Assembly: GCA_019426215.1 (NCBI GenBank)
Contig: CM033400.1
Location: 17,468,568-17,532,567, forward strand
DNA length: 64,000 bases
Source: Buddleja alternifolia
Lineage: Eukaryota > Streptophyta > Magnoliopsida > Lamiales > Scrophulariaceae
Direction: 5' to 3'
The notes beneath the pieces are model-generated. The model was given only the letters and a program-made list of their open reading frames with translations, did not search any database and was not told where the DNA came from. Shown here piece after piece: positions 28,201-48,400 of the stretch. The position numbers and the translations under genes were made by a program. Positions within the stretch are counted from its first letter, which is position 1; each line of letters starts with the position of its first letter.

Positions 28201-31200
28201 TAGCCCGATCAACATGGACATGATCCGAGTCTGGATGATTAAGTTATTTGCACGCTTTGCAGCATCTTTTAAAATATAATCATGAAACCCCAAAGATAAA
28301 ATAAAGAGGGCAAATGCTGAGGTCATTCAACTTCTCATATGCATAATGAAGTATGAATTGTCGTATCTTATTCTTTAACCCTTCATGGTGTTTGAATTAG
28401 TATCTATCTATCTATCTATTCACATGAAGTGGATATTTTGTTTATTTTTTATTGAAAACTGTCTTATGAAGTTATGATTGAACCAAGGTTCTGATAAATG
28501 TGAAAGTACTAACTGAATATTGATAAGATCTAAAAAATTTGAACTTCCCACCTATTGACTCTACTGCTTTACCCGTTTATGTAAGATTGGTAAAACTTCA
28601 ACTTAATTGCTAAGTGTAACTTGTATGAACATGAGAATTCATGCTTCACATTCTTTTACAATGAAAAAAGATATTTTGGTTAGGTTCACAACCCTGCATA
28701 GTTACATCAACTTTTAACTGTTTCTGAGATGAAAGAAAAAATTTATTGGTCGAAAGAGGATATGATGTATGGAGAGGAGTGTAAATATTTTGCTATAGAT
28801 CAATGCTTGGATACCTCCCAAAGTCCATTGGAGAAGGCACTTCATGCTGGATACTAAAGAAAGAAGGCACTGTGATAAATTTTTTACACACTCTCACTGA
28901 TTCTTCTGTAATTTTGCTCTTGATCAACTTAAGCCAACTGGTAAGTCAAGAAATCAATATTAGTTTGAACTAAATGTAGGAGCCATATTTTTTTGCACAC
29001 TAAAAGAATATTCTGTGCTTATAAACTGATGTTATTCTTAGGTTCATGACTTGTAGTTGTAGATTTTCCACTTTTTACAACTGAATATGTTGTTCAGCTA
29101 TTCGCGTGGCGACCCAATGGTATCAGAATCATCTCGGAGGTGCAGTGCGCGTCTTGCTTATTACAAATGATAGAGACAACAAGAAGAAAGCTCTTAAGGA
29201 TGGGATTCTTGCGGAGACAGGTATATGCTGATTCTTGAATTGCTTGTTGATTCTACATCATCCTTAGAGGGCTCCCGCATAATGTGATAATAATAGTCAA
29301 CTTGAGAATCAAGGTGCTTTTTGGATGTCGCTGCCACTGGGTTGTCTCAAATGCTACTTATTCTTGCAGAATTTTGTTTTGCTAACTCATCAAAAAGCCT
29401 TTTGTTGAATATTCATCTTGATATATCTTGTAATAGAGTTTGATTACCTCTGCAGTTGAGTCATATGTCAAGTCGCTTGGTCAACCAGCATTACTCGACC
29501 TGATTGTTCAGCCTCCATCTGAGGATGTTACGATGGAAGATGTCGAAGATCTGAGGCCCTCAAAGAGAAAAACGATCTATCCTGAGGTATTCAGGCTAAT
29601 ATAATTTTCCCTTTATGGATGTGCACTAATTGGTTTATGGTCTCCTCCATGCATACAGTATTGCCTTTTATATAATATTTTTTGCTGTCTGTTTCTCATG
29701 TAGCATAAGCCCATTTCAGAAATTACTTCTGGCTTACATCGTGGAATTTACCACCAAGGGAAACTTCGGGTTAATCGTTTCAATCCGTTTGAAGCATATG
29801 TTGGCAGTGAAAGCATTGGGGATGAAATTATTCTATATGGGCGTGCAAACATGAATAGGGCTTTTGATGGTGATATAGTGGCTGTGGAACTTTTGCCTCA
29901 GGATCAGTGGCAAGAAGAAAAATCTCTCGTAATAGCAAATGATGGTTTGTAGTCTTTAAAGTGTTTATGCTTATGTTATCTTTGCTTAAGAGTATGTATT
30001 ATTGCTGCAAAGTAAATTGATCACTAGATTCATTTCTTATGTTAGAATACCTGTCTGCTAGATCCTAATTGTTGTGAAGCGGATTTATGAGCAAAAGAAG
30101 AAGGAGCAGATTAGACGTGTTATTAAGGCTGTTTAATTTTATTTTATGTTTTGAGTTAATTAAATAGTAGAGTCTGATTGTTAGTAGGTTTCTTTGGTGG
30201 CAAGTTTTCTTTAGGGTTTGAGTAGTAGTTTAAATAGGAGTCTTTAGGGTTTATTTTATTCATTCTGAATTTTATTGTGGAATCGAGCTTTAATCTTGGG
30301 GGAAACTTCGGTTTGTAGGAGCAAGAATTTATTCTTGTTGGTTTATCGTTTTAATAAAATTAAGTTCTAACAATTTGGTCCGACCTGCCGGATCAACGAG
30401 TGAATTCGAGATAATAATGACGCCACTTTCCCATAAAGAACGGGAAGAACGTCTTAATGCAGCTGGCAACAGATTCCTTTGGCCTCCCTCTTCTATTGAT
30501 GAACTCCTGTCTCTTCTCGATCAATTGAGGAACTCTTATCAACAGTGGAGCAGTCACCTGCCAAATCCATGCAAACTGCTCTTTCTCCACTAAAGAAGGC
30601 ACTGGTTGCAGAAGAGCTGGTGAAGCATTCAGACAATGATGTAAAATTAGGCATAGCTTCTTGCATCAGTGAGATGACGAGAACTACTGCACCGTATGCT
30701 CCATATGATGATGAAAAGATGAAGAATGTATTCCAGTTGATTGTATCATCCTTCCAGGATTTGTCGAACACATCCAGATCCCATGGAAAAAGGGTCACCA
30801 TACTTGAAATCATGACCAAAGTCAGGTCTTGTGTCATCATGTTGGATTTAGAATGTGACCAGATGATTATTGAGATGTTCCAACACTTTATCCAAGCTAT
30901 TGGAGTTTATCATACAGAAGTCATCTTTGCATCTATGGAGACAATTATGACTCTTGTTTTAGAAGAAAGTGAAGATATATTCTCACATGTATCTTAATCC
31001 AATCTTAGCTACCTTGAAAAGGAGCAATGAGGCTGTCATGCCAATTGCAAAGAAGTTGACTGAGAGAGTGATTCAAAACTGTGCAGACAAGCTTAGACCC
31101 TGTTTAACAAAAGCAGTAAAAACTATGGATGCTTCTGCAGATAATTATATTGAAGTTGTAGCTTCCTTGTGCCGAGAGAACAGTGATACGATCGGGTGTA

Positions 31201-33376
31201 GTAATGAAAACATCTTAGAAGACCAGTCGGTGGCTAAGGGTGGTATAGAAAAGATTAATTTTCAAGAAAATGATCCCGCCATGATATCACCAAAGTCAAC
31301 TGAGAGTAATGGTATCAATCATACTGAGACTAAAGAAACTATGAGTGATGCCAATTATCCAAAGAAAGCAAATTTGGACCATCAGATTGATGCTGGAGCA
31401 ATGTCCAAAACCAAGTTTAATAATTAAGTGGTCAAGAACCAGTGAAATTGGAAGCTAAACCGGAGCATGAAAAAGCTCAGCAGGTGCCATACATGATGCG
31501 ATTCGATGTTCCTTATTCGGGAAGGCCTTACAAGCATAGGCAACAATTTCCTAAGTTCAGCCTAACAAAGTTGTTTTTAAGGGGGGTGGAATTGTTATGA
31601 AGCGGATTTATGAGCAAAAGAAGAAGGAGCAGATTAGACGTGTTGTTAAGGCTGTTTAGTTTTATTTTATGTTTGAGTTAATTAATTAGTAGAGTCTGAT
31701 TGTTAGTATGTTTTTTTGGTGGCAAGTTTTCTTTAGGGTTTGAGTAGTAGTATAAATAGGAGTCTTTAGGGTTTATTTTATTCATTCAGGATTTTATTGT
31801 GGAATCGAGCTTTAAGCTTGGGGCAAACTTCGGTTTGTAGGGGCTAGAATTTATTCTTGTTGGTATATCGTTTTAATAAAATTAAGTTCTAACATTCATG
31901 GTCAGAATACAACATCAAACTCTGTAAAACTAAATAATGATGCCAATTGGGATGCCTTGGATTGTTTGTTTTGCTTCATTTAGTTTCTCACTAAAATAGG
32001 CTATAGGGTATTCTACTTGACTAATTACTTCTCCAATTTATAAGGTGAAACATCGAATTCAATCTCAAATATCTTTGAAAGTTTTGATTGCAGAACAGGA
32101 ACTTCAATCATTCTTGCCCTAACTTTTTGCAAACTCTAGTTTCAGTATTGGTTCATGTGAATTGAGCCATCTTATAGTTGACTCAATTAATTATGGGAGC
32201 CATGAGAGTCTGAAACACTTTAAATCAGTTGCTTTATAGAATGCAGCCAATCAGTGGAAACTCCATACTTCATGTAGTAGTTCAGGAGGAGCCTTTCTAA
32301 TTAGCCTGTACATTGTCTAGACCGGCTTCAACTCTTTTGGCAGAGAAATTGTATACACTACACTTGTACTCATGAGGCAACTCTCCTTTAAATCAATTTG
32401 AAAAGTTGCATGGTGCAATACATGCTAGAGTGATGAATGCTTTTTCCATCGTTCTTGTTATACATAGGGGTGTCCTCAATGAGAACTGACTATTCAGAGG
32501 TTGGAAAGTTGAGGTCGTGACTCCCACATATGCTTATAGAAAAACCAATGGGCATTACAAGCCATTCGTGCAGCCAATTCTTAGTTTTAAAGATTATTAT
32601 TTTTATTGTTGATCTCAAGGGCACACAGGATTTGATGATAGCCCTTTCCTAGATCAAGTTTGAAAAAAGCAGAAGCTCCAGCATTATTTTAAGCACATAT
32701 TCAAGTTGAGGTTTGGTGGTCATTTTTCTTTTAATTCCATGGATATAACATGCATTCGCCAATTATTTTTCGTCTTTGGTGTAAGATATGGACTTTGATC
32801 TTCTTGAAAATGTCCTTTTCATAAGAGCTGCTCATCTTGTCTCTTAAGCTCTACATGCCATGGGATTCATAAGATGTGTATGAAAGATTAGGTACCTGTG
32901 AATAAGACACCATACCTATGATCTCTTGAATATTTTACATCAGTGGTAGTTTATCAGTATAATCTGCCAGGGACTTGGACACTTCAGTAGATACCTTTCT
33001 GTGAAGAGTCTATTGGAGTTTTAGATGCCATGTTATTAAAGACACCTCTTTGTTTGATTTTCATCTGCCATGCCATTTTTGTAAGGACAAGATACCACTT
33101 TGGGTTAGAGAGTCTTGCATTATTAGTTGATCATTTTGCTGCACATGGTCAATGACCAAATAGTTTAATGGGTATGTTACTGGATCTACCATAACTTATC
33201 TAAGCTTACTATTTTATACCATATGTATGTCTCTGCTTGTTTGCATATCTTTATCTGTATATATAAACACATAATAGTTGTGTGTGTGTCTGTCTGTAGA
33301 TATGATGGTATACCCATTAGAGATGCTTTTGTCCAAAGTGTTTTCAGCTTGCTCTCTCTCTCTCTCTCTCTCTCAT

Positions 33377-33407
<31 letters not shown>

Positions 33408-36400
33408 ATGTTACCTGTTTGGACTCTCCCTTTGCATTATATTTGAATCCTTTTTCACATTGTACCAGAGGATGAGGAGGAAGATGACGTTCATTTAGCT
33501 CCAGGCAGTGCTGATGATGCTCCTAGAGTTACAAATCTTACACAGGTTTCAGCTGAGAACAAGAATGCCATGCCTGCTCGTCCATCTGGACGTGTTGTTG
33601 GCATTATAAAACGGAACTGGCACTCGTAAGTGAAATGATTGGATCATTACTAACTTTCTCTCTTCATGAAACTACTGTTTTCTCCAGTCTTTTGAAGCAT
33701 GGACTATTGGCTTAATTGCTTTTGATCAATAACCATTGAGTGGGGTTTATGCACATCAATCCTAGAATTGGTATTACTAAATGATAGCTGAAGTGTTAAA
33801 GCACTTCACTTGAAAAGACCTGAGCGTCTGTGTCTGACCTCTGACTCTGACAGATAAGAATACGCTTAGAGACACATCAGACTTGCTGTTACAGGCTGGA
33901 TGTTGTAATGGACATGATTATGTGCTGGGGCATCTTGAGATTAAAATATACTCCATTACAAAAGGAGAAAATGGGTCACATTCGATAGGGCAGTCTTTTG
34001 ATCAAAGAGAAAGAAAAATAGTATAATCAGAAAAAAATGTATTCTGAAATGGTGGTTGGTCTTAATTTCTGAATTAGTTGAGGGACCTGGGGGTTGGGGG
34101 GCAATGTTCGTTCTGTGGCGTCAGCGTGCTTATTGTGAGGTTAAGACATCATAAACATATTGTTAATAAACAATGAAAATATGCGACTATTTGTAGCACG
34201 TTAGATCGTAACGTTAAAAGGTTAAGATCTAGCTTCAATCTTATCAGCTGCTTCTGATTATGTATCAGTAAATGATCAAAGTATCTGTGTTTATGGATCA
34301 GTAATGATCAAAGCATCTGACTTCGTTTGGCTTTAGCATTTTGAATCCCTGACACTATATGCACCTTGTATTTTGTAAACTTAGACATCTTGGTTGCACT
34401 CTTCCTCAGTACAGGTCATTGAACTTGAAAAAGTTCAAGAAGTGGTTCCTTGTATAAGAGTAATGTCTTTCTTTTTTCTGAAAGGTGTAAATGCTTGTTC
34501 TGCTGCAATTCACTAAAAATAATATATTCCTGTTCTAAGTTCAAAATTGTCGCCAGTCCAGCGTGACAAATCAACCATGTACTCAGCAGAAAAATACAAA
34601 AACAGCCCATGTACTCTTATATGAGCAGAAGAGAGAGAGAGAGCCAAGAGCAACTGAAGTAACTAAAGAAACTAGTTTATACTTTATATCGATCAGCTTA
34701 GAAAGCTTACCCTGCATTTAATCCATTCGTTGAATATTCCACATTATCAAGGGCAGAAAATGGAAGAATTCTGGTGCCCTAAAAATCTTTCATTCGTTGA
34801 ATATTCCACATTTCAAGCTTAAACTATACAAGAAAGGAGTACAAATCTTGAAAACCCTAAAAACCCCAACTTGTGTGTGGTGTCCCCTAATGCTCAATGG
34901 AAGTATGAATAGTTTGGAGAAACTTTGCTCAGGTGGTTAAATAGAGAGCTTTTACTGAGGGCAAGAAAATCTTCCTCTCTTTCGTTCTTGAACTCGGTAA
35001 ACAAATAAAATCCATCTAGGCAACTCAATTTAGGATTGAGCCAAAAACAGAAGTTCCCTCCATAGAGATGAAATTGCAAGAAGTGTTGGAAGTGTGGGGA
35101 ACATATGGTTACTTATTTGCCTATGATACTTTATCTGTTTTCTTATGTTAATTTTTAATTTTTTTTAATCTTTTATGCAGTTATTGTGGGTCTTTGGACC
35201 CAATGCCTATGCCTGCGGGTGAGGGTGGTGTTGCACATGCTCTATTTGTCTCCAAAGATCGAAGGATTCCTAAGATTCGGGTACAAACTCGACAGCTTGG
35301 AAATTTATTAGACAAAAGAATCATTGTTGCTGTTGATTCCTGGGATCGCTTATCTCGATATCCTTCTGGACATTATGTAAGAACAATTGGCGAGATAGGT
35401 GATAGAGATACGGAAAGCGAGGTACGTTGTAGAAACTTGTTTTCTTGCCACTTCTAAAATGTCAAGAAAAGAGGGAGTGACAGTAACTTCCATTAAGTTA
35501 TTTTTCATACCTTGTGCATCTCCACATGACTTAGACTATTGAAATCTTGTACTGATAACCTTTAAGCTTGCCTTGGTTGAATAATTACTTCACTGATTGT
35601 ATACTTCCTCTGTCTACCGTCGAATGCTCTCAGTTGCTTTATAGAAATGCTCCAAGTTATTACTTTACTTAAAAAAGTTGTATATTAGATTCCAATATTC
35701 TCTCATTTTCTGCTACCTTTAACCTGAGCGACCTTTGAAAATACTTCCGGTTTAACATCTTTTGCAGACAATAGGTTCCTCCAGCAAGTAAAACATGTAA
35801 ACAAATTTGAATAGGTTTGCATTATCTTCTGAATGTTATCCAACCGCGGATTGAAAAGACATTTAAATCCATCTAGTGGGTTAATAGAAGCTTTCTGCAC
35901 ATGCAATAGCAAATCTTAGAAAAATCCACCGGAAAATTTAGCTTTGTGTTAATATAACAATAGTAACAATTTCACTTCAGAATTCGTCTGAACTCTGAAG
36001 TAAATGAGCTGAAATATATAGCTAATAAACTTTTTCGTAATTATCTTACCCGTATCTATTGAAATATCAAAGAACCAAAATGAAGGGAAAGGAGAATGGC
36101 TAAAGGTGTTGAAAGAGAGATATCAAATCATAATATTGTCGTAATAGGCATAAACTTCAGTCGACTTGTATCAGAGCCCCACTATTAAAGAAATAACCTA
36201 TTATAAAATATAAATATTAATGAAAAACAAGGAAGCCCAAAAAACGAATGCTCACTTTTCTATTCTAACCTAAAGTTTCATCTAAAAACAAAATGGGACA
36301 CTCATCTGGATAAAAGTTATACAATTTACAGGATCAGCATGTGTGACTGCATACATTTTCTTTGCAGGTGGTGCTGATAGAGAATGATATTGATGCAAGA

Positions 36401-39400
36401 CCATTCTCATCTCAAGTTTTGGCATGTTTGCCACCGTTGCCTTGGTCTGTGACGGCTCAAGATATAGCGAATCCCACTAGACAGGATCTGCGTCAGCTAC
36501 GTGTCTTCAGTGTGGATCCTCCAGGTGATTTAATTGATATGTAGAAATATTTTGCTTATCTTTATCAATATTGTTATGTCTGATTCTCCTTTTCATACTT
36601 GAGGCACCTCAAAGTTCTACCGTCACATAAAGTTGATGGTGCTTTATTTGGATTTTACATTTCTGCAGGATGCAAGGATATTGATGATGCATTACATTGT
36701 ACACTTCTTCCAAGTGGAAATTTTGAAGTGGGAGTTCGTATCCTCTCATTATCTTGTTATTTAGTTTCTTATTAACACTATAAAAGGTTTGGTCTCTTGT
36801 TTGTCTTTGGTCGTCCTTTGAGATGTTCTCACATAGGAACATTTTACTCCTTAGTCTTTCTACTGTTTATTGGAGAAAGGACACTATTCTCCTAAAGCAT
36901 CATTTTTCAGTGGAAATGCCACAAATATGCACCCCCTCTCTTTTTTTCTTGTAATGATTTATGTGATTCGTCTTTGAAGATCATGAAATGGAGTTTGTCA
37001 GATGTCAATAAAATGTAGCGGCACAATTATTAACTAGTTTCTGAAATAATTTTTAAGTGTCATGCTAAACTAACTGATGAACCTCATCTTATTCAGAAAT
37101 CTGGTCAAATTTACATTGGCTGTTTATAAAAAATCTCTGACAAGAGATTTTTGGTTGGACCTTCATAAATTCTTCAATTCTCATTCTTAGGAATTCAAGA
37201 GAAGACCTTAATGAAGATCCTTACAACTATTTCATGGCAATGTGCATCTTTAAGATATTAGAGGAGTAGTAACCTTGCAAAAGCATAAGACCTTGTGTAC
37301 TAGTGTTTCAACATTAATGTATTTCCAAATGAATTATCCATGACATGGATTGTCCCTTGAACAACTAAGAAATCTAATATTATTAAGATCCTAGATACAT
37401 ATGTATTTATGGCTTCCGGTTCTCATCTTATCATCTCTGTCTTTTGGGAGACAAAATGGGGTGAAGATGAGTATACTTTGTGTTAAGTTTTTCTTGAATA
37501 AGTAATTACCCCGTGTATAAGTGTTCTCTAACCAAAAATAAGATCCACTATAAATTTTAATTCATGCAGATTGGGTAAGTTCTGGCTGTAATAAAGGTTC
37601 TTCTTGGTAGTACCAGTCTATTTTTTGGCCCACTCTATTTTTTTGTTATGACCTAGATTTGCAAAAGTTTATTGTAGATAATCTATGAACTGGCTAGATA
37701 CATCATGTACTTTCTCGTTCTCATAGCTTCAAAAGCAATTCAGAATTCCATGCTTATATTTTCAATGATTGACTAAGTTCTAGTTCTAGCACAAAATCAG
37801 GATATTTAATTTGAAAAGACCAGGAAGGATGATTTCTAGCCGCTTCTATTTCTCTATTCTTATAAATTAGAAAAAAATGTCTGAAACCCAAATTTTTTTC
37901 TATGTTATGTTCAGACAATTTTTAAGTAGAGCCCTTATCTAGTATTTTTAAAACAGTGAGCGTCTTTTTTAAGGTCAAACTGATATAGGCATATTGGAGA
38001 TGTTTTTAGCTATTAAATTATGTGAATGTTAAATTCATGACTTAAGTTTTATTAGATGGCTAATTGTCATGGCATTACAGCATATAGAAATCCTAGGGAC
38101 ATTGGCTATTTTTTTGGTTGTACCATCTCAGATAGTTTAAAGACTGTCCATCCTGGACTTTGAGTAAATCTATCGTAGATACAAATATACAAAATATTGT
38201 TCTCTCTTGTATGCTTTAGATGACCTGAACTAATTATTAAGATACAATGTAGTAAGAGGCTTTTATTCCCTTAGTTAATGGGAGTAATGCATGATATCTG
38301 TTTCATTGTTATCTTTAATGGCATGTATTAGATATTGCTGATGTCACAAATTTTGTTCACCCTGGAACCCCCTTGGATGATGAGGCCTCACAAAGGGGTA
38401 CCTCTGTCTACCTTGTGGAGAGGCGCATTGACATGCTTCCAAAACCTCTGACAGAAGGTGATCTATTTGTTTACTTAATGGGTTATTTATAGTTTCTTCT
38501 CGATCTTGCATTGATGGAATATTTGGCCAAAAGGATCAACCTATACTAATGCAATCTTATCTATACTTTGCAGATGTTTGTTCCCTGCGTGCAGATGTGG
38601 AGAGATTAACATTTTCTGTTATTTGGGTACATCTTTTGTCTTATAGCAACTGGATTTTAATGGCTAATTTGGACTTATTTCACGATACTTGCTGACATGT
38701 TTAATGCATTTCATGAACTGTGTGCGTAAGATTTGTTAGTATTCTGGAAGAACAAGTGTCCATGAAATACCTGTTAATTTATTGGCAAATTAGTTGTACA
38801 CTTATTTTAAGTATCAACCTTCCAAGGAGGGGGCCAACTGTCAATTGTTGCGTAATTTGTATGTATCATTAGGGTTAGTCTGATGGGTACTTTTTATAAA
38901 TAGTTTTGTGCATATTATATCGATAGCTTAATGTACCAGATAATACCTGTTAATTTTTTGGCAAATTAGTTGTACACTTTTAACCTTCTCCTCTTCCTTC
39001 TCGTTACATGTAATTTTATATCTGTTTTTTCATATTTATTAAACCCACAGGCCGCTATTGATTCTGCTTTCCTACATGTTTGCAATTTAGGAAATGACTC
39101 CTGAAGCAGAAATTATCTCTACGAGGTACACAAAGGCCATTATAAAATCTTGTGCAGCATTATCTTACGTTGAGGCTCAGGCAAGGATGGATGATAGGTA
39201 GCCATATCTAACATTTTCTCTTCTAATAGATTCTTTTATTTAGCACTTCTGAACTACACTAGCCGCTTTTAGGTTCTATTTGGTCGTATTTTATCCGTTT
39301 ACCTTTTATACATTTCTCTTTTCTTATTTTAAACTGCTTGTTGTCATGCTTTTGTAATATCTTTTGATCAACTTGCCATTTTATGACTGTTTATTGAGCT

Positions 39401-42400
39401 TTTCTTGCAACTGCGGTATTTGGTCACAGGTCATGTTTGTTCCTTACTCGAATATGCATCTGCAGTCTCTTTCTTATGAACATTTGTGTGATTCCAAACC
39501 AAACAATATACATTGCATTTTATGCATGAAACTACAGAAGTTTAAAGTTTCTTTAGATTGAACGAATTAGATGCATGCCTGCATAGTATGTCTTTTACAT
39601 GCTGTAATTTGAATATTTCAGTGCTCCTCGATAATTTCTTTTCCATCTTTGTCTTGAGTTTCCTTTTATTTTTGAAAGTGAGTTGTTTGGTCTCCTGAGA
39701 AGGATCTTTCCACTCAGAAGTCCAAAGGTTACATGGCTCAAGCTATGTCTCTTTGCGTATTTGAAAAGAAATTTGAGGATTGGACTTTGTATGTATGTGT
39801 AACCTTAGCTATATGTGAAACCATAGCTTTTCTAATTTGCTGTTTTATTTTTGATGCACACTAAAGCTGTGGCTTTGATTTATGTCTTCCTTCTTTCTTT
39901 CTTTATTTTTTATCCTGGGTGGTTATTTGACTGATCTTTCTATGAACTCATCAAAATATTATGTTTTCCATATCTCATACTTTTTTCTAATTCTGTTCAT
40001 TTTACAGTCGCTTGATGGACCCATTAACGACAGATTTGCGGAATATGAATGTGTTAGCAAAGGTAACTGTCAAGAGTTAATATACTCAATAGCTCGTTTT
40101 TTAATAAAGCTATATAAATTTACCCCTGAAATTTTGTAGATAATGAGGCAAAAACGCATTGAAAGAGGAGCCTTAACTCTTGCTTCTGCTGAAGTGAAAT
40201 TTCAGATTGATACTGAAACTCATGATCCTCTTGATATTGGTATGTTGTTCTTTTTCGCTTCTCCTTGGCAATGTTTGGTAAAAAGCTAAATATATGATAT
40301 ATATATACATATTTTTTTTTTCCTACATGAAAATTGATGTGCTAATTATACAGTGAGAAAAACTGCTTCAGCTCCTTTTTAGTTAGTTTAGTGCAGTGAT
40401 AAACAAATATTTCCTAAACTTTTACGACATTAGACGACACGATCTGGGAAGACTGGTGAAGAAAATCTTTGTAATTATTATTATCATGTCTCTGCCATTT
40501 TTTCCCACCTAAATTTTTTCTAAAAGGACTTGTGATCTCATGTTGATTTACCATGTTATATTGTTAATCAACCAGTAAATTGACACAATGTTTTCATTGT
40601 ATAATGACAATTGACTAGAGCATGCACTAAAATTCCTGAAGCTTGAACATCATGTTGGGTAAAGAGCCCATTTCATGTGTGATGTAGTTTCTTTTGCATT
40701 CATTGGACATCATCTTGCACCCTATTTGATCTGTCTTCAATTCTTTTTTTTATTGCAATTATTTTTACATTTATGTGCAGGTATGTATCAAATTCGAGAA
40801 GCAAACCAGATGATCGAGGAGTTTATGCTCGCTGCTAATATATCAGTAGCTAAAAGGATTCTGGAAAATTTTCCTCTCACTTCACTTCTAAGGTATTACT
40901 AGAGCTACTGACTGAACCGGGTATAGGAAGAGGTGAATGAATTTTGACTTCAGGAAGATTCTGACACTCAGTTGGATTCAAAAAAATTGCTAGGGCAAAG
41001 AAAAGAAAACACAAGGAAAATCATTTTCCCTTGTTTGGTACTAGGGAAAATAAAAAGGAAAAGAAAACAATGAAAAAATCTATTACTGAGAAAATTCCTT
41101 TTTCTCACACAAAACTACCATCTTATAAGTGAAATTACAAATACCTAACTCACTAACATTGCAAATTACATTTACCCAAAGCGCCTCCCCCCCCCTCGTT
41201 CAATGGTCAAATAGTATTAAATGTCATTTTTGCCCCATACTTGAATATTAAAAAAAGAAAAAAAAATCTAGAACTATATTTTCGTCTGAAGAGACGAAAA
41301 TACCCCTCATAATTACACAAATACCCACCCCCCCATAATGTATATGATAGAAACAGAAAAACGATAAAAGAAATAATTTCGATAGCTCGAAAATCCAACA
41401 AGAATAAATCTTGCTCCAATCTAAAAGCCGATTCTTTATTGATTCAAAACTGAATAATGAAAAACGTAACCCCTAACGCCTTACATAACTAAAGACTCGT
41501 ACTACGAAATGAAGTAACTTGACCCCTAAGCAACTAGAAAACTTAATCAACAAGTAACTAAATAAGCAAGGAAATAAACTTCTAGCCCAACAAGGAAACC
41601 TAATTAAGCAATAACTCAAAATAAGGAAATAAATAATTAACTAAATCAAATCTGTTTTTTTTTTCCCTTCCTTCTCAAAAATCGTTTCATAAAAGTGTAA
41701 TTACCAAAATACCTTACTTTTTTTAAATTACCAATACCTCCCTCTAGGGGTATTTGTAAGGTTTTTAGGGGTTAATTGTAAGAATCTGCAAATACACAGG
41801 AGTGTAATTGTAAGAAATGTCTTACATGAGGGGGTCTTTATGTAATTTCAAAAGGGTGAGGGAGTATTTGGGTAATTACACATTATGCGAGGGGGTCTTC
41901 GTATAATTTTCTGTCATAAAAATGTATAAAATTTGGACGGGGGTATTTTTGGAAGTTCATATGATGACATCATTAATAAACTGATCTCAGGGTGGTTGTT
42001 AGTACTTATTTTGAATAACGAAGATTTCTCAAGAACAAGTTCTTGCCCAAGCAACACGCTTGATTCAATTCCAGAAAATATAGATCATGTTTTACAAACT
42101 CTATTCTTGCCTACTTAATTCACGTCTGCAATGCAAGGAAATAACTGTAAATACAAACTTCCTCTAACTTCCCTCCTAATTAATTCAAATTACAGAACTT
42201 AATTAATTTGCCTAATTAAAATACAACAGTAAATAAATATTAAACTTAAGTTGCTTCTTCTTTTCCACCTTGCTGCTCGACCATCTTCTCCTTCTTTCTT
42301 CGTTCGTAAACTCGGTTAACAACAACTCGTCGCCCCTTAAAATTAGCCTTGTCCCCAAGGCTAAAATAAGGAAATTGTTGCACAAGTTCCAGTTCATCAA

Positions 42401-45400
42401 TCCAAGAAGCCTCGTCGCGCGCCTTTTCTAGCCACTTTACTAATGCTTGTCTTGCCACCTTATTACCGTCTTTCAATTCGCGCCAATCCAAAATTAATTC
42501 AGGCTCGAAAATGCTAGTGTCTGTTATGGCCAAATTCGGTGGAACCTCACCTTCCACGGGATGATTCCCCACCAGCTTCTTCAGTTGCGACACATGAAAC
42601 ACCGGGTGGATCCGGCTCGTGTTTGGTAGGCGCAAACGATAAGCTGTTTGTCCCACTCTTCCCTCGACTTCAAAGGGACCGTAGTGCCTTGGTTCCAGTT
42701 TCGTATGGGCTCTCTCAGCTAAAGAAGTCTAATGATGCGCCCAAATCTTGAGAAAGACTTTGTCCCCTACTTGAAATTCCACATCCCGATGATGTTTATT
42801 TACATATTTAATCATCAACTGTTGGGCCCGAATCAGATTATGTTTCAATTGTTTCAGTATTACATCTCGTTCCACTAGAATTGTAGCCACCGCATCAACC
42901 TTGCATTCCTCGGGTAGAAATATGTGTAGCGAAGGGGGTATTCGCCCTTAAACAATTTCGAATGGGGTGGATTTCGCCGCAGTTTGAAAGGAAGTGTTGT
43001 ACGAGTACTCCGCCCATGCTAACCATCCCACCCATTTGCTCGGTTGTTCTGATATAAAGCAACGCAAATAAGTCTCCAATGTGCGACAACACCTCAGTCT
43101 GCCCATCGGTTTTCGGGTGATAAGCCGAGCTCAATTTTAATTTAGTACCTTGCAACTTGAATAGCTTCCTCCAAAAAGAACTCACGAACACGGGGTCCCT
43201 GTCACTAACTATCGAACGAGGCACCCCGAGCAACCTAACTATTTCTTTGCAAAATAAGTCTGCCACAGTACATGCCGTGAAGGGAAATTTAAGTGCCATA
43301 AAATGCCTGTACTTAGGGAGCCGATCCACCACAACCATAATATATGTGAACCCCTGCGATTTTTGTAGACCCGTAATGAAGTCCATTGAAACATCCACCC
43401 AAATCGCCTTCGGAATCGGTAGTGGTTGAAGCAAGCCGGCTGGGGAGGCTGCTTCATATTTGCATTTTTGACAGATAATACAATTTGCCACATACTCCCT
43501 GATTCGTTTAAACATATCCCGCCAATATAAACTCACTGCAAAGCGCTGATAAGTTCAAAATGCTTCCGCATGCCCCCCATACAACAAATGGGGAATCAAT
43601 GCCGAATGAGAAACCAAAACTAATCGCCCTTTAAAGAACAATCGCCCACCAATTAACTTGAAACCGGGACGACTAGCACTATTCTGCTTCAAATCTGTGA
43701 TAACAACCGACGTAAAGGTGTCACGGCTTTGTTCTTCAGTCACATGTGATAATTCAGTCCATATTGGTCCGTTTAACACCATCAATTCTCCTTGTTGGGA
43801 CAAAGCGTCGGCTGCCGAATTTGCCAGACCCGACTTATACACAATTTCGAAATCATAACCCAAAAGTTTGGCCACCCAAATTTGTTGTGACGGGTAACAA
43901 TTCATTGAGATAAAAGATGTTTAAGGTTATGGTGCTCAGTACATACCGTGAATCACCTCCCGGTCAAGTAGGGCCGCCAATGTTGAACGGCAAAGACTAA
44001 GCCCATCAACTCCCGCTCGTAGGCTGATTTTATAATCGTGTTATCTGACAATGCCTTGCTAAAATAAGCTACTGGTCGTCCAGATTGCATGAGGACCGCA
44101 CCAATGCCCGTTCACGACGAATCACATTCAATTAGAAAAGGCTGCGAAAAATCCGGCATTGCTAATACTAGGGCGGCTGTCAAAGTCGATTTCAAATCTA
44201 TAAATGCCTTTTGAGCAGCTTCAGACCATTCAAACTTACCCATGACGTCTTTCTTAAGTAATTGTGTCAAAGGTCTAGCAATAAGTCCATAATTCCGTAC
44301 AAGCGCCAATAATAACCCGTGAGGCCCAAAAATCCTCTTACGTCCCGAACTGATTTCGGCTTTGGCCAAGCCATGATTGCCTCGACTTTAGATGGGTCCA
44401 TCGCCACATTTTCGGCGGATATTACATGACCCAAGTATTCTACATGTGAACAACCGAAAGCACATTTTTTTCGATTCGCCTTAAACTGATTTTCTCGTAG
44501 AATGCCCATAACAATACTCTTAAGTGCTCCACATGTGCCGAAACTGATTTGCTATATATCAAAATGTCATCGAAAAATACCAATACAAATTTTCACAAAT
44601 AGGGCCTGAACAAGTCATTCATCGTGGATTGAAACGTGGCCGCCGCGTTTGTCAATCCAAACGGCATCACCAAAAATTCGTAATGCCCACTATGTGTGCG
44701 AAACACTGTCTTTGGCACATCCGGCGAAGCGATGCGGATCTGATGATAACCCGAACGAAGGTCAATCTTTGAAAATATTACGGATCCCGATAATTCATCC
44801 AACATCTCTTGTATGACCGGAATAGGATATTTATCCGGAATAGTCATTTATTCAACTCTCGATAATCGACACAGAATCGTGAACTACTGTCTTTTTTTTT
44901 CACTAATAACACGAGACTTGAGAACGGGCTAGAGCTGGGTTGTATAGTTCCAGCTAACAACATATCCTTCACAAGACTTTCGATTTCATCCTTTTGTGTA
45001 TGCCCATAACGATATGGACGTACCGATACAGGTTTAGATCCCGGTTTCATTTCAATGTGATGGTCGGTTGGATGGCTGGGTGGCAGCCCCTCGATTTCTC
45101 CAAACACATCTGAAAATTCTTCCAATAATTTTTCAACCTGCCTATCTGCCTCAATTGCATTGATGCTGAAATCTGTTGCTGCGCAGCTCATTTCATGCCG
45201 AATAATAGCCCAAGATTCATAAACTTGTGTCTTCAATAAGGATTTAAGTCCCACATGTGTTCGACTCAAGGCAGGGTCTCCTTGGAGTGGCACTAGCTTG
45301 TCACCATCCTCAAATGCCATCGTCATCTTTTGTCAATTGATGTGAACATCCCCTAAAGTCTCTAAACACATAACAATCCGCTCTGATCGTACACGGTTTG

Positions 45401-48400
45401 AATTGAATATTCAATTTTTTGCAAACTCCATCAGATTCCTGTCACCGTCCATCTCCTAATTGCACACCGAATTTTCCCGTAGTCGACGATAACAGTTTCA
45501 GCCCGGTTACAAGTGTGCGAGATACAAACTTGTGATTCGCACCATTGTCGATGAGTACTATGTACCTTCCCATTCAACCGCATTGTTCGAGGTCCCGATA
45601 GCCTAGCCATTGTGTAAAGTGGTAGCGCCGCATGATCAGCTTTTTCTTCATCTTCCATAATTATTGGTTCATTTGACTCGCCCAGCTCTTCCTCCTCGAT
45701 AATTCAGCCCCGGGAGGATCCCCTTCTTCAATCAAGAGTGCTCGTAATTCTTTCTTTGGATATTCGTGCAAGGGATGGAATGGCTGCTTGCAACGGAAAC
45801 AGAGTCCTTTGGCCCGCAAGTCTGCGAATTCTTGTTGGGTGAGACGACGGAATTGAGTACGGGCAGTGGATTGATTCGAACCCGTTGACCGAGTGGGCTG
45901 ATTTCGGTTGTTAATCCCTGTCTCACGATCCTAGTTGCGTGACCTCCTATCACTCATGAATGAAAGAGGCGCCCTACTGTAATTTAAATTTCGTGGTGTA
46001 AAATTTGTGCCACGAAAAGACGAATTCCCACTGTCCGTGCGGTCTCCTGTTTGTAGGTGAAGATCCGCCTCAACATCTCGGGCCATATGCATATCAGCTG
46101 GGCGCAACAATCGTATTTTGCTTCGAATGTTTTCATATAACCCATGCATGAAATAGGTCATCAGAGATCCCCGGTACTTGATTCGCGATTTGGATGAAAT
46201 GGTTTACATAATCGTCCACTTTACCCATCTGTGTAGCCTCCGAAAGTCGTTCATATGGGCTGCCCATATAGCGTTCGTCAAAACGAACCATTAGTGCTTG
46301 TGAAAAATCCGCCCAATTTGAGTTCGGTTTACGGTGGCGCAATCATCTAAACCAGTGAAGTGCGGGCCCTTCCATGGAAACCATGGCCAATTGGACTTTC
46401 TGATCGGGTTTCAAACTGTTGCTCGGCTCGGGCAAGCCAGCCAATCGGGTCAGATCCATCAAAAGTCGGAATGGATATCGTATGTGGTTGTGCCACTGTA
46501 AACGCTCCTGTTGCTGCTGCAACGCTGTCATCAGTGATGCCTATTTCCGGCGTGACAGAGACCGCCGGTGAGTTAGTAGGCGGCGGTGGCGCTGTCGTGG
46601 TCAACCTGTTTAACACAGCCATAATTTTCTTCAACTGATTGTGCACCAATCGCTGGTTCTCAGTCATCACGCTGAATTGTTCCTCTAATTTCTCCAATCC
46701 TTGTCGGTAGCAGATCGTGTGTTTGTCATGATTGTGGGGTAGGGATCCGGCAGGTCGGAGTCGGACCAAATTGTTAGTACTTATTTTGAATAAAGAAGAT
46801 TTCTCAAGAACAAGTTCTTGCCCAAGCAACACGCTCGTTTCAATTCCAGAAAATATAGATAATGTTTTACAAACTCTATTCTTGCCTACTTAACTCACGT
46901 CTGCCAATACAAGGAAATAACTGTAAATACAAACTTCCTCTAACTTCCCTTCCTAATTAATTCAAATTACAGAACTTAAATAATAAGCCTAATTAAAATA
47001 CAACAGTAAATAAATGTTAAACTTAAGTTGCTTCTTCTTTCCCACCTTGCTGCTCGACCATCTTCTCCTTCTTCTTTCTTTGTTCGTAAACTCGGTTCAC
47101 AATAGCGGTAAATGTAATTTTGCAATGTTAGTGGGTTCAGTATTTGTAATTTCAATTATAAAAGGGTAAGTTTGTGTAATTACTTATTATAGTTGTGGGT
47201 AACTGTGTAATTTTCCTATTTTCTAATATCATTTGCAAATTATTTTTGTAGGAAACATTTGAAATCGTTAATAGTTTAGTTCCATAGTTATTTCTTTCTT
47301 TTGTTTTCATTGTCCTTGAAATTTTCCTTACTTTTCTCGTGACAATCAAACAAACATTAAAATTTTGGATTTCTGTGATTTTCTTTTTCTTTCCCTATCG
47401 TTTTCTTTTCTTCACCAAAATCCTTGAATCAGACAGAGTGTAAATCTTTAAGTTGTCTTAGCCTACAGAAGATGATGCTTAGTGCATAATAGTTTTAGTC
47501 TACTAATTGAATTTTTCTCTTCTTCATTTATCTTCTGATGATTTATTTTATCTCCAGACGGCATCCTACCCCAACTAAAGAGATGCTTGAGCCTTTAATT
47601 CAAACAGCTGCTGCGGTTGGTCTTAGTTTGGATGTGACATCCTCGAAAGCACTGGCTGATTCACTTGATCGTGCTGTGGTAAGTTAGCCACTTATGAGCT
47701 CGAGTATGACAATTCTCCAGTTGTTTACTAGTTATAAATGCAACAAAGGAAAAAATATCAGTAATATTTTAGTATTTTGGTGTTTAACAAATTCTTGTGA
47801 TTCTTTTTTCTTTCCTTGCTTGAAAACTCTTGTAGCCCATATCATTACGTACATGCATCCCATTGGCAGAGCCTTTAGCTTGAACAGTTGTGCCAGGTGA
47901 TTGATTTTTTAAAATAGATATTTTCTGGTGGTAAAACCAACTGCAGCATGGAGTCGTCTTCTCCACATGCTAGACAATTTAAGTTTCTCTAGATGGCATT
48001 TTATTTGATGACATACATTCTATTCTAGAGTCTTTGCAGATATTTGATTTTCTAGTACGTTTAGGTGGTAATAGAAACTACTACAGCATGGAATGATGAT
48101 CTCTGTGTGCATGGAAATTTCAGTCCGTTGTATTATCATTTATCATGAATGACCATATGACCTTACACAAGCCTCTTATACGTTTATAGTTTCCTTGGTA
48201 TGTTGCCTGAATGTTGTGCAATTCAAGCTATAGAGCATGTTTACATAACTTCAAAATTTTGGATTGTGGATGCTGCAGTTCTGATTGGCTCTGTATATGG
48301 GCCACATTACTGTTATAGAGCTAGTCTGAAGTAGATAAATGAGAACTACTATCTCATCTCTGTACTCTGCTATGATAGATAAACATGGCTATCAGATAGG

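Follow-up and report, generated by a model that had tools for sequence, protein, structure and literature searches.

A short LTR element in the window, the 64,000-nucleotide stretch of Buddleja alternifolia DNA analysed here, carries between its LTRs an intron-free piece of the gene for the cohesin regulator PDS5C. We consider it very probable that this is a non-autonomous Ty3/gypsy-type element in which almost all of gag-pol was replaced by a spliced PDS5C cDNA, and which was later dispersed. The case reads clearly as the capture of a host mRNA by a plant LTR element with, to all appearance, subsequent spread: one can name the cargo and where it breaks off at its 3' end, as well as three cargo copies and an element related to the parental lineage. 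The captured host-gene piece seems to have spread through the B. alternifolia genome by means of an element without genes of its own.

Structure and position of the element

The preliminary description of this DNA had reported two LTRs about 95% identical, differing at about 15 of 303 positions, and both figures hold. Two direct LTRs with TG...CA ends are found at 30070-30372 and 31593-31894, 95.1% identical (BLAST, 304 and 306 aligned bases, E = 2e-136 and 2e-137), and separated by 14 substitutions and one 1-bp gap. At one and the same site, TTTAAATAGGAG in the 5' LTR stands against TATAAATAGGAG in the 3' LTR. The features of the element and its surroundings are as follows:

29704-29946, plus strand: RRP44/DIS3 CSD1 exon frame, upstream of the element (Pfam Rrp44_CSD1 1.4e-13; PDB RRP44 2e-12)
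30070-31894, plus strand: whole element, a short LTR retrotransposon of 1.8 kb with an interior of 1.2 kb
30070-30372, plus strand: 5' LTR, 303 bp, TGTTGTG...TTCTAACA, with AATAAA close to its end
30376-30393, plus strand: primer binding site (PBS), TGGTCCGACCTGCCGGAT, 18 nt, 3 bases past the 5' LTR
30399-30416, plus strand: short leader encoding SEFEII ahead of the ATG of the cargo
30417-31492, plus strand: PDS5C cDNA, read as captured, native residues 1 to ~373, without introns and with 3 frame breaks
31493-31578, plus strand: tail outside the PDS5 homology, similar to the last part of a Ty3/gypsy pol (QQFPxFSL)
31579-31592, plus strand: polypurine tract (PPT), AAGGGGGGTGGAAT, abutting the 3' LTR
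31593-31894, plus strand: 3' LTR, 302 bp, carrying TATAAATAGGAG
35152-35454, plus strand: RRP44/DIS3 CSD2 exon frame, downstream of the element (Pfam OB_Dis3 1.9e-18; PDB RRP44 2e-19)
38319-38489: RRP44/DIS3 RNB frame, downstream of the element (RNB domain match)
41997-47104, minus strand: decayed Ty3/gypsy chromovirus-type element with LTRs of ~330 bp, 10 kb downstream of the cargo element

LTRs, PBS and PPT, the marks of an LTR retrotransposon, are thus present at 30070-31894 and in the correct order. The PBS is presumably the complement of the 3' end of a plant tRNA-Tyr plus CCA, with identity over 18 nt; its sequence had 0 exact matches in viral contigs. No target-site duplication of the expected 4-6 bp was recognisable: CTAAT on one side of the element and TTCAT on the other have 3 of 5 bases in common. 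As such duplications can vanish through mutation or recombination, their absence weakens the assignment to LTR retrotransposons without outweighing the LTRs, PBS and PPT. The lack of a perfect target-site duplication also speaks for a local segmental duplication of LTRs and cargo with no transposon involved. We find this barely credible, since the element has PBS, PPT and TG/CA ends where they belong, its PBS and LTR ends are shared by another element of the window, and two more copies of the cargo stand in other annotated genes. LTR-like repeats restricted to this place had been named beforehand as a sign of such a duplication. A related, non-identical LTR pair with the same PBS does occur in the window, while the two further cargo copies are known as proteins only.

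The LTR element lies in sense in an RRP44/DIS3 gene, between two of its exons, the borders of which are approximate. Six frames were scanned for the host gene: three match RRP44-type domains, one has a weak unrelated match and two have none. With a CSD1 frame upstream and CSD2 and RNB frames downstream, the location in RRP44A given by the preliminary description is borne out to the level of an RRP44-type gene.

The second element, at 41997-47104, has Pfam matches in 2 of the 5 frames scanned. These are to the integrase core (rve, 8.7e-8) and a Tf2-1-type SH3 domain (4e-9), with an integrase zinc domain (3e-5) and a chromodomain (1.9e-4) below the cut-off; the five frames gave no Pfam match to reverse transcriptase. 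The stretch 31540-31634 aligns at 73% to its pol end and LTR start, and 30350-30394 at 80% to its LTR end and primer site. The primer site itself (46744-46770, minus strand) is the PBS of the cargo element with a 6-base insertion, a partial duplication (GGTCCGACTCCGACCTG). Near the end of its pol stands QQFPYFSL, which QQFPKFSL in the tail of the cargo element resembles, and the tail at 31493-31578 resembles a relic of the pol of the parental element. Judged from these alignments, the 41997-47104 element is a relative of the parental lineage, though not necessarily the helper.

The cargo element shares LTR ends, primer site and last pol residues with plant chromoviruses such as 41997-47104. 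Unlike them, it has no gag, reverse transcriptase, integrase or chromodomain detectable by Pfam in its four interior sense frames, in agreement with the earlier statement that reverse transcriptase and integrase are missing. In the absence of chromodomain, integrase and reverse transcriptase we file it as a non-autonomous derivative of the chromovirus lineage and not as a chromovirus.

Two minor repeats were seen in this part of the window. A 59-nt inverted repeat (41107-41165 and 47119-47177, 86% complementary) lies just outside 41997-47104 and may mark an element into which the latter inserted. At 41388-41417, a 31-base alignment (90%) to part of the LTR of the PDS5 element is possibly a relic piece of LTR.

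The PDS5C cargo

The interior encodes, in sense, roughly the first two fifths (~43%) of the 857-residue PDS5C, from the start codon at 30417 to QQVPY at 31492, where PDS5 homology stops and the tail begins. The nearest native protein is PDS5C of B. alternifolia itself (P0080). One of the four interior sense frames scanned (30545-30994) matches Pfam PDS5 (PF20168, E = 5e-36) above the cut-off, and the same frame matches solved Pds5 chains at E = 1.5e-13; the remaining Pfam matches in these frames are weak, none better than 0.011, and fall short of the cut-off. By tblastn, P0080 aligns in four collinear pieces, residues 4-35 at 30423-30527, 35-187 at 30524-30979, 192-347 at 30993-31415 and 351-373 at 31424-31492, with frame shifts between pieces and no intron-sized insert. 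The intron-free PDS5 interior noted earlier is thereby confirmed, and can be specified as being of PDS5C type. The coding sequence of the window copy is broken by three changes of frame, among which assembly errors are possible, and this copy, as broken as it is, probably does nothing.

The positions of native introns were deduced from homology breaks in PDS5C fragments, searching 294 fetched proteins with P0080 and tabulating positions where at least 2 proteins break. Five proteins begin to align at residue 34 and 11 at 100-101, and the alignment stops at 161 in 16 proteins and at 101 and 204 in 2 each. Further stops, each seen in 2 to 4 proteins, lie at 170 and in the range 218-340, and further starts lie at 278 (two) and at 8-11 (many), the latter beside the variable N-terminus. 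P0013 is a clear example at two of the four positions 34, 101, 161 and 204: more than 30 unrelated residues separate DDDQMK from EVFQ, and the same is seen between HFLKSI and RDYHPEN. Some breaks are not intron read-throughs, for example that of the kinesin-domain protein P0027. The exon positions assumed for the source gene are indirect, because no listed example of a break comes from Buddleja. The window cargo runs without interruption through native positions ~34, 101, 161 and 204. It would therefore have lost introns at four positions where native PDS5C genes appear to have them, and the check for retained introns proposed in the preliminary description gave none at these four. In addition, a native stretch of 14 residues, VERTVTSASPVQDQ, is missing from the cargo, from P0198 (see below) and from P0081 of Handroanthus, as might be expected from a splice form of the PDS5C mRNA.

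An intron-free cargo would also be expected if a LINE-made processed retrocopy of PDS5C had landed in an existing LTR element and later travelled along with it. We regard this as highly improbable: the cargo is not followed by a poly(A) tract, homology to PDS5 ends within the coding region and passes straight into the pol-like tail, the cargo occupies the place of gag-pol near PBS and PPT, and no repeat brackets it (repeat search, at least 20 bp).

Further copies and their descent

Three protein searches gave 77 matches, the best 120 of 740 and the best 120 of 127. Among the matches listed, three proteins are named as Buddleja. P0080 (Bualt10G0140900) is a full PDS5C and the only full-length native one of Buddleja in these lists. 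P0079 (Bualt09G0016200, 1094 aa) is annotated as "Methyltransferase-like" and has two methyltransferase-type Pfam domains in addition to PDS5, and P0198 (Bualt03G0221600, 278 aa) consists mostly of cargo, with QHVQYTMRSGLNSN at its end. The locus names of the last two point to chromosomes 9 and 3, respectively.

In P0079 the cargo stretch is annotated as an in-frame exon of the methyltransferase-like gene, and can be read as standing between two parts of one methyltransferase. It ends at EHEEAQQ, and the end of this exon corresponds to CAG/GT in the window (31483/31484), a candidate splice donor. This protein has SEFEIL where the window leader encodes SEFEII; the leader residues common to both could also be PDS5 5'UTR. 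P0079 may be a chimeric gene or an artefact of gene prediction. That the PDS5C-bearing element made a working chimeric gene there (N-terminal PDS5 repeats fused to a methyltransferase in Bualt09G0016200), or that the copies yield small RNAs or protein fragments tuning PDS5C, is in our view rather unlikely.

P0198 seems to share the 3' breakpoint of PDS5 sequence with the window copy. The codons after the break in the window read MMRFDV, and TMRSGL of P0198 requires four base changes in six codons, a fit equalled or bettered by 10 of 20,001 random draws, with the six codons having been chosen after viewing the sequences. The fit stops after these six codons, as the next three residues need 2, 1 and 3 changes.

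At 18 sites the copies agree with one another and differ from the native protein, 13 of them with all three copies present and 5 with the window copy and P0079 only. At 7 of the 13 and 1 of the 5, the native residue is also that of all the outgroups P0081-P0083, which places the change in the copies. At 3 of the 18 the outgroups carry the residue of the copies, which places it in the native protein (or the alignment is shifted at the first residues). Six changes are common to P0079 and P0198 and absent from the window copy, and none is common to the window copy and P0198 only. Contrary to the tree, two residues are shared by the window copy and P0079 against P0198 and native. In the protein tree (17 rows, 6 of 14 inner branches well supported, Penstemon and Andrographis flagged as long), the window copy, P0079 and P0198 form one clade (100/99) that is sister to native P0080 (100/99), with P0079 and P0198 together at 95/91. 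The shared stem of the copies measures 0.077 changes per residue and the native branch 0.013, about six times less, which suggests that the cargo passed through a shared unconstrained phase within the element and was dispersed afterwards.

The cargo is therefore present at three sites that can be named (the window and two B. alternifolia genes, the LTRs around the latter two being presumed) with a common source at the protein level, which calls for at least two moves after capture. The best-fitting account is a single capture with two or more moves after it. An unseen native PDS5C paralogue could be the real source; the three copies could then be independent retrocopies and the shared changes its own. 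Only one full-length native Buddleja PDS5C was seen among the best 120 of 740 and the best 120 of 127 matches, which leaves room for such a gene. We nevertheless hold it to be quite improbable, given that the 3' breakpoint and residues beyond it are apparently common to P0198 and the window copy, that P0079 shares the leader residues (possibly 5'UTR), and that the long shared stem against the short native branch is as for an unconstrained lineage.

We suggest instead a single capture by an LTR element. Most likely, PDS5C mRNA would have been packaged with the RNA of the parental element in a virus-like particle, where reverse transcriptase would have switched template into and out of it. The resulting chimeric element would have retained what is needed in cis (LTRs, tRNA-Tyr primer site and polypurine tract) and could have been moved by proteins of an autonomous relative. 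Capture, unconstrained drift in the element, dispersal and possible exon formation make an order of events that is testable in one genus. Since the cargo is part of a cohesin regulator, the copies could hypothetically affect PDS5C via chimeric proteins or small RNAs. What deserves to be followed is that the dispersal can be traced and that the cargo is annotated as an exon in a second gene.

Age and comparison with known elements

The distance between the LTRs is 0.048 (Jukes-Cantor). Substitution rates of 1.3e-8 and 6.5e-9 per site per year, uncalibrated for this plant, give an insertion age of ~1.8 or 3.7 million years, respectively. LTR divergence had been proposed as a way to date the event, and this is valid for the present insertion and not for the capture, which the protein tree suggests to be older. 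Between the fork with the native gene and the window copy, this tree has about 0.18 changes per residue, in excess of the neutral decay expected since insertion, so the capture is probably a few times older than the insertion in the window.

In plants, LTR elements are known to have taken up genes by the hundreds in a single genome. TRIM/SMART elements, as we take their definition, are likewise short and non-autonomous, with both LTRs, PBS and PPT; a TRIM would be very short with little or no coding interior, whereas the present element has 1.8 kb including 1.08 kb of host cDNA, which makes up most of its 1.2-kb interior, and a recognisable pol-like tail. In Bs1 of maize, host coding sequence also stands inside an LTR element, and we take its host pieces to be spliced and the element to be non-autonomous. 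The present element has the same intron-free host coding sequence between LTRs, with native intron positions deduced from other plants. It differs in having no detected gag and a short pol-like tail only, as well as in its LTR family and host. Bs1 contains fragments of a plasma-membrane ATPase and of two other host genes (PMC13317346), whereas one host gene, PDS5C, is found here. The same 2026 review also names Rider and a TRIM that contains a piece of a P450 gene, and it describes template switching for the Veju and BARE elements (PMC13317346). The captured genes of rice, sorghum and maize (Jiang and Ramachandran 2013, PMC3726574) resemble our case in having host sequence between LTRs with PBS and PPT, and in having expanded by retrotransposition and often decayed. 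The word "intron" is absent from the available text of that study, so spliced and unspliced captures are not separated by that word, and PDS5 is not named in the passages available.

Judged by titles and the first lines of abstracts, none of the literature matches listed describes a PDS5 cargo in a retrotransposon or is dedicated to the LTR elements of B. alternifolia, and the word PDS5 has 0 occurrences in the available text of the listed literature on gene capture by LTR retrotransposons.

Among the proteins fetched, P0244 of Tanacetum coccineum (639 aa) combines retroelement zinc-knuckle, protease and reverse transcriptase domains with a PDS5C fragment that spans the usual break positions. 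It is possibly an independent capture of PDS5 in Asteraceae, or a fused gene model. In P0245 (Penstemon smallii), P0274 and P0275 (Pistacia) and P0230 (Fragaria vesca), PDS5 is found with MATH, prephenate dehydratase or F-box; pieces of PDS5C may recur in other plant genes, or these too may be fused gene models.
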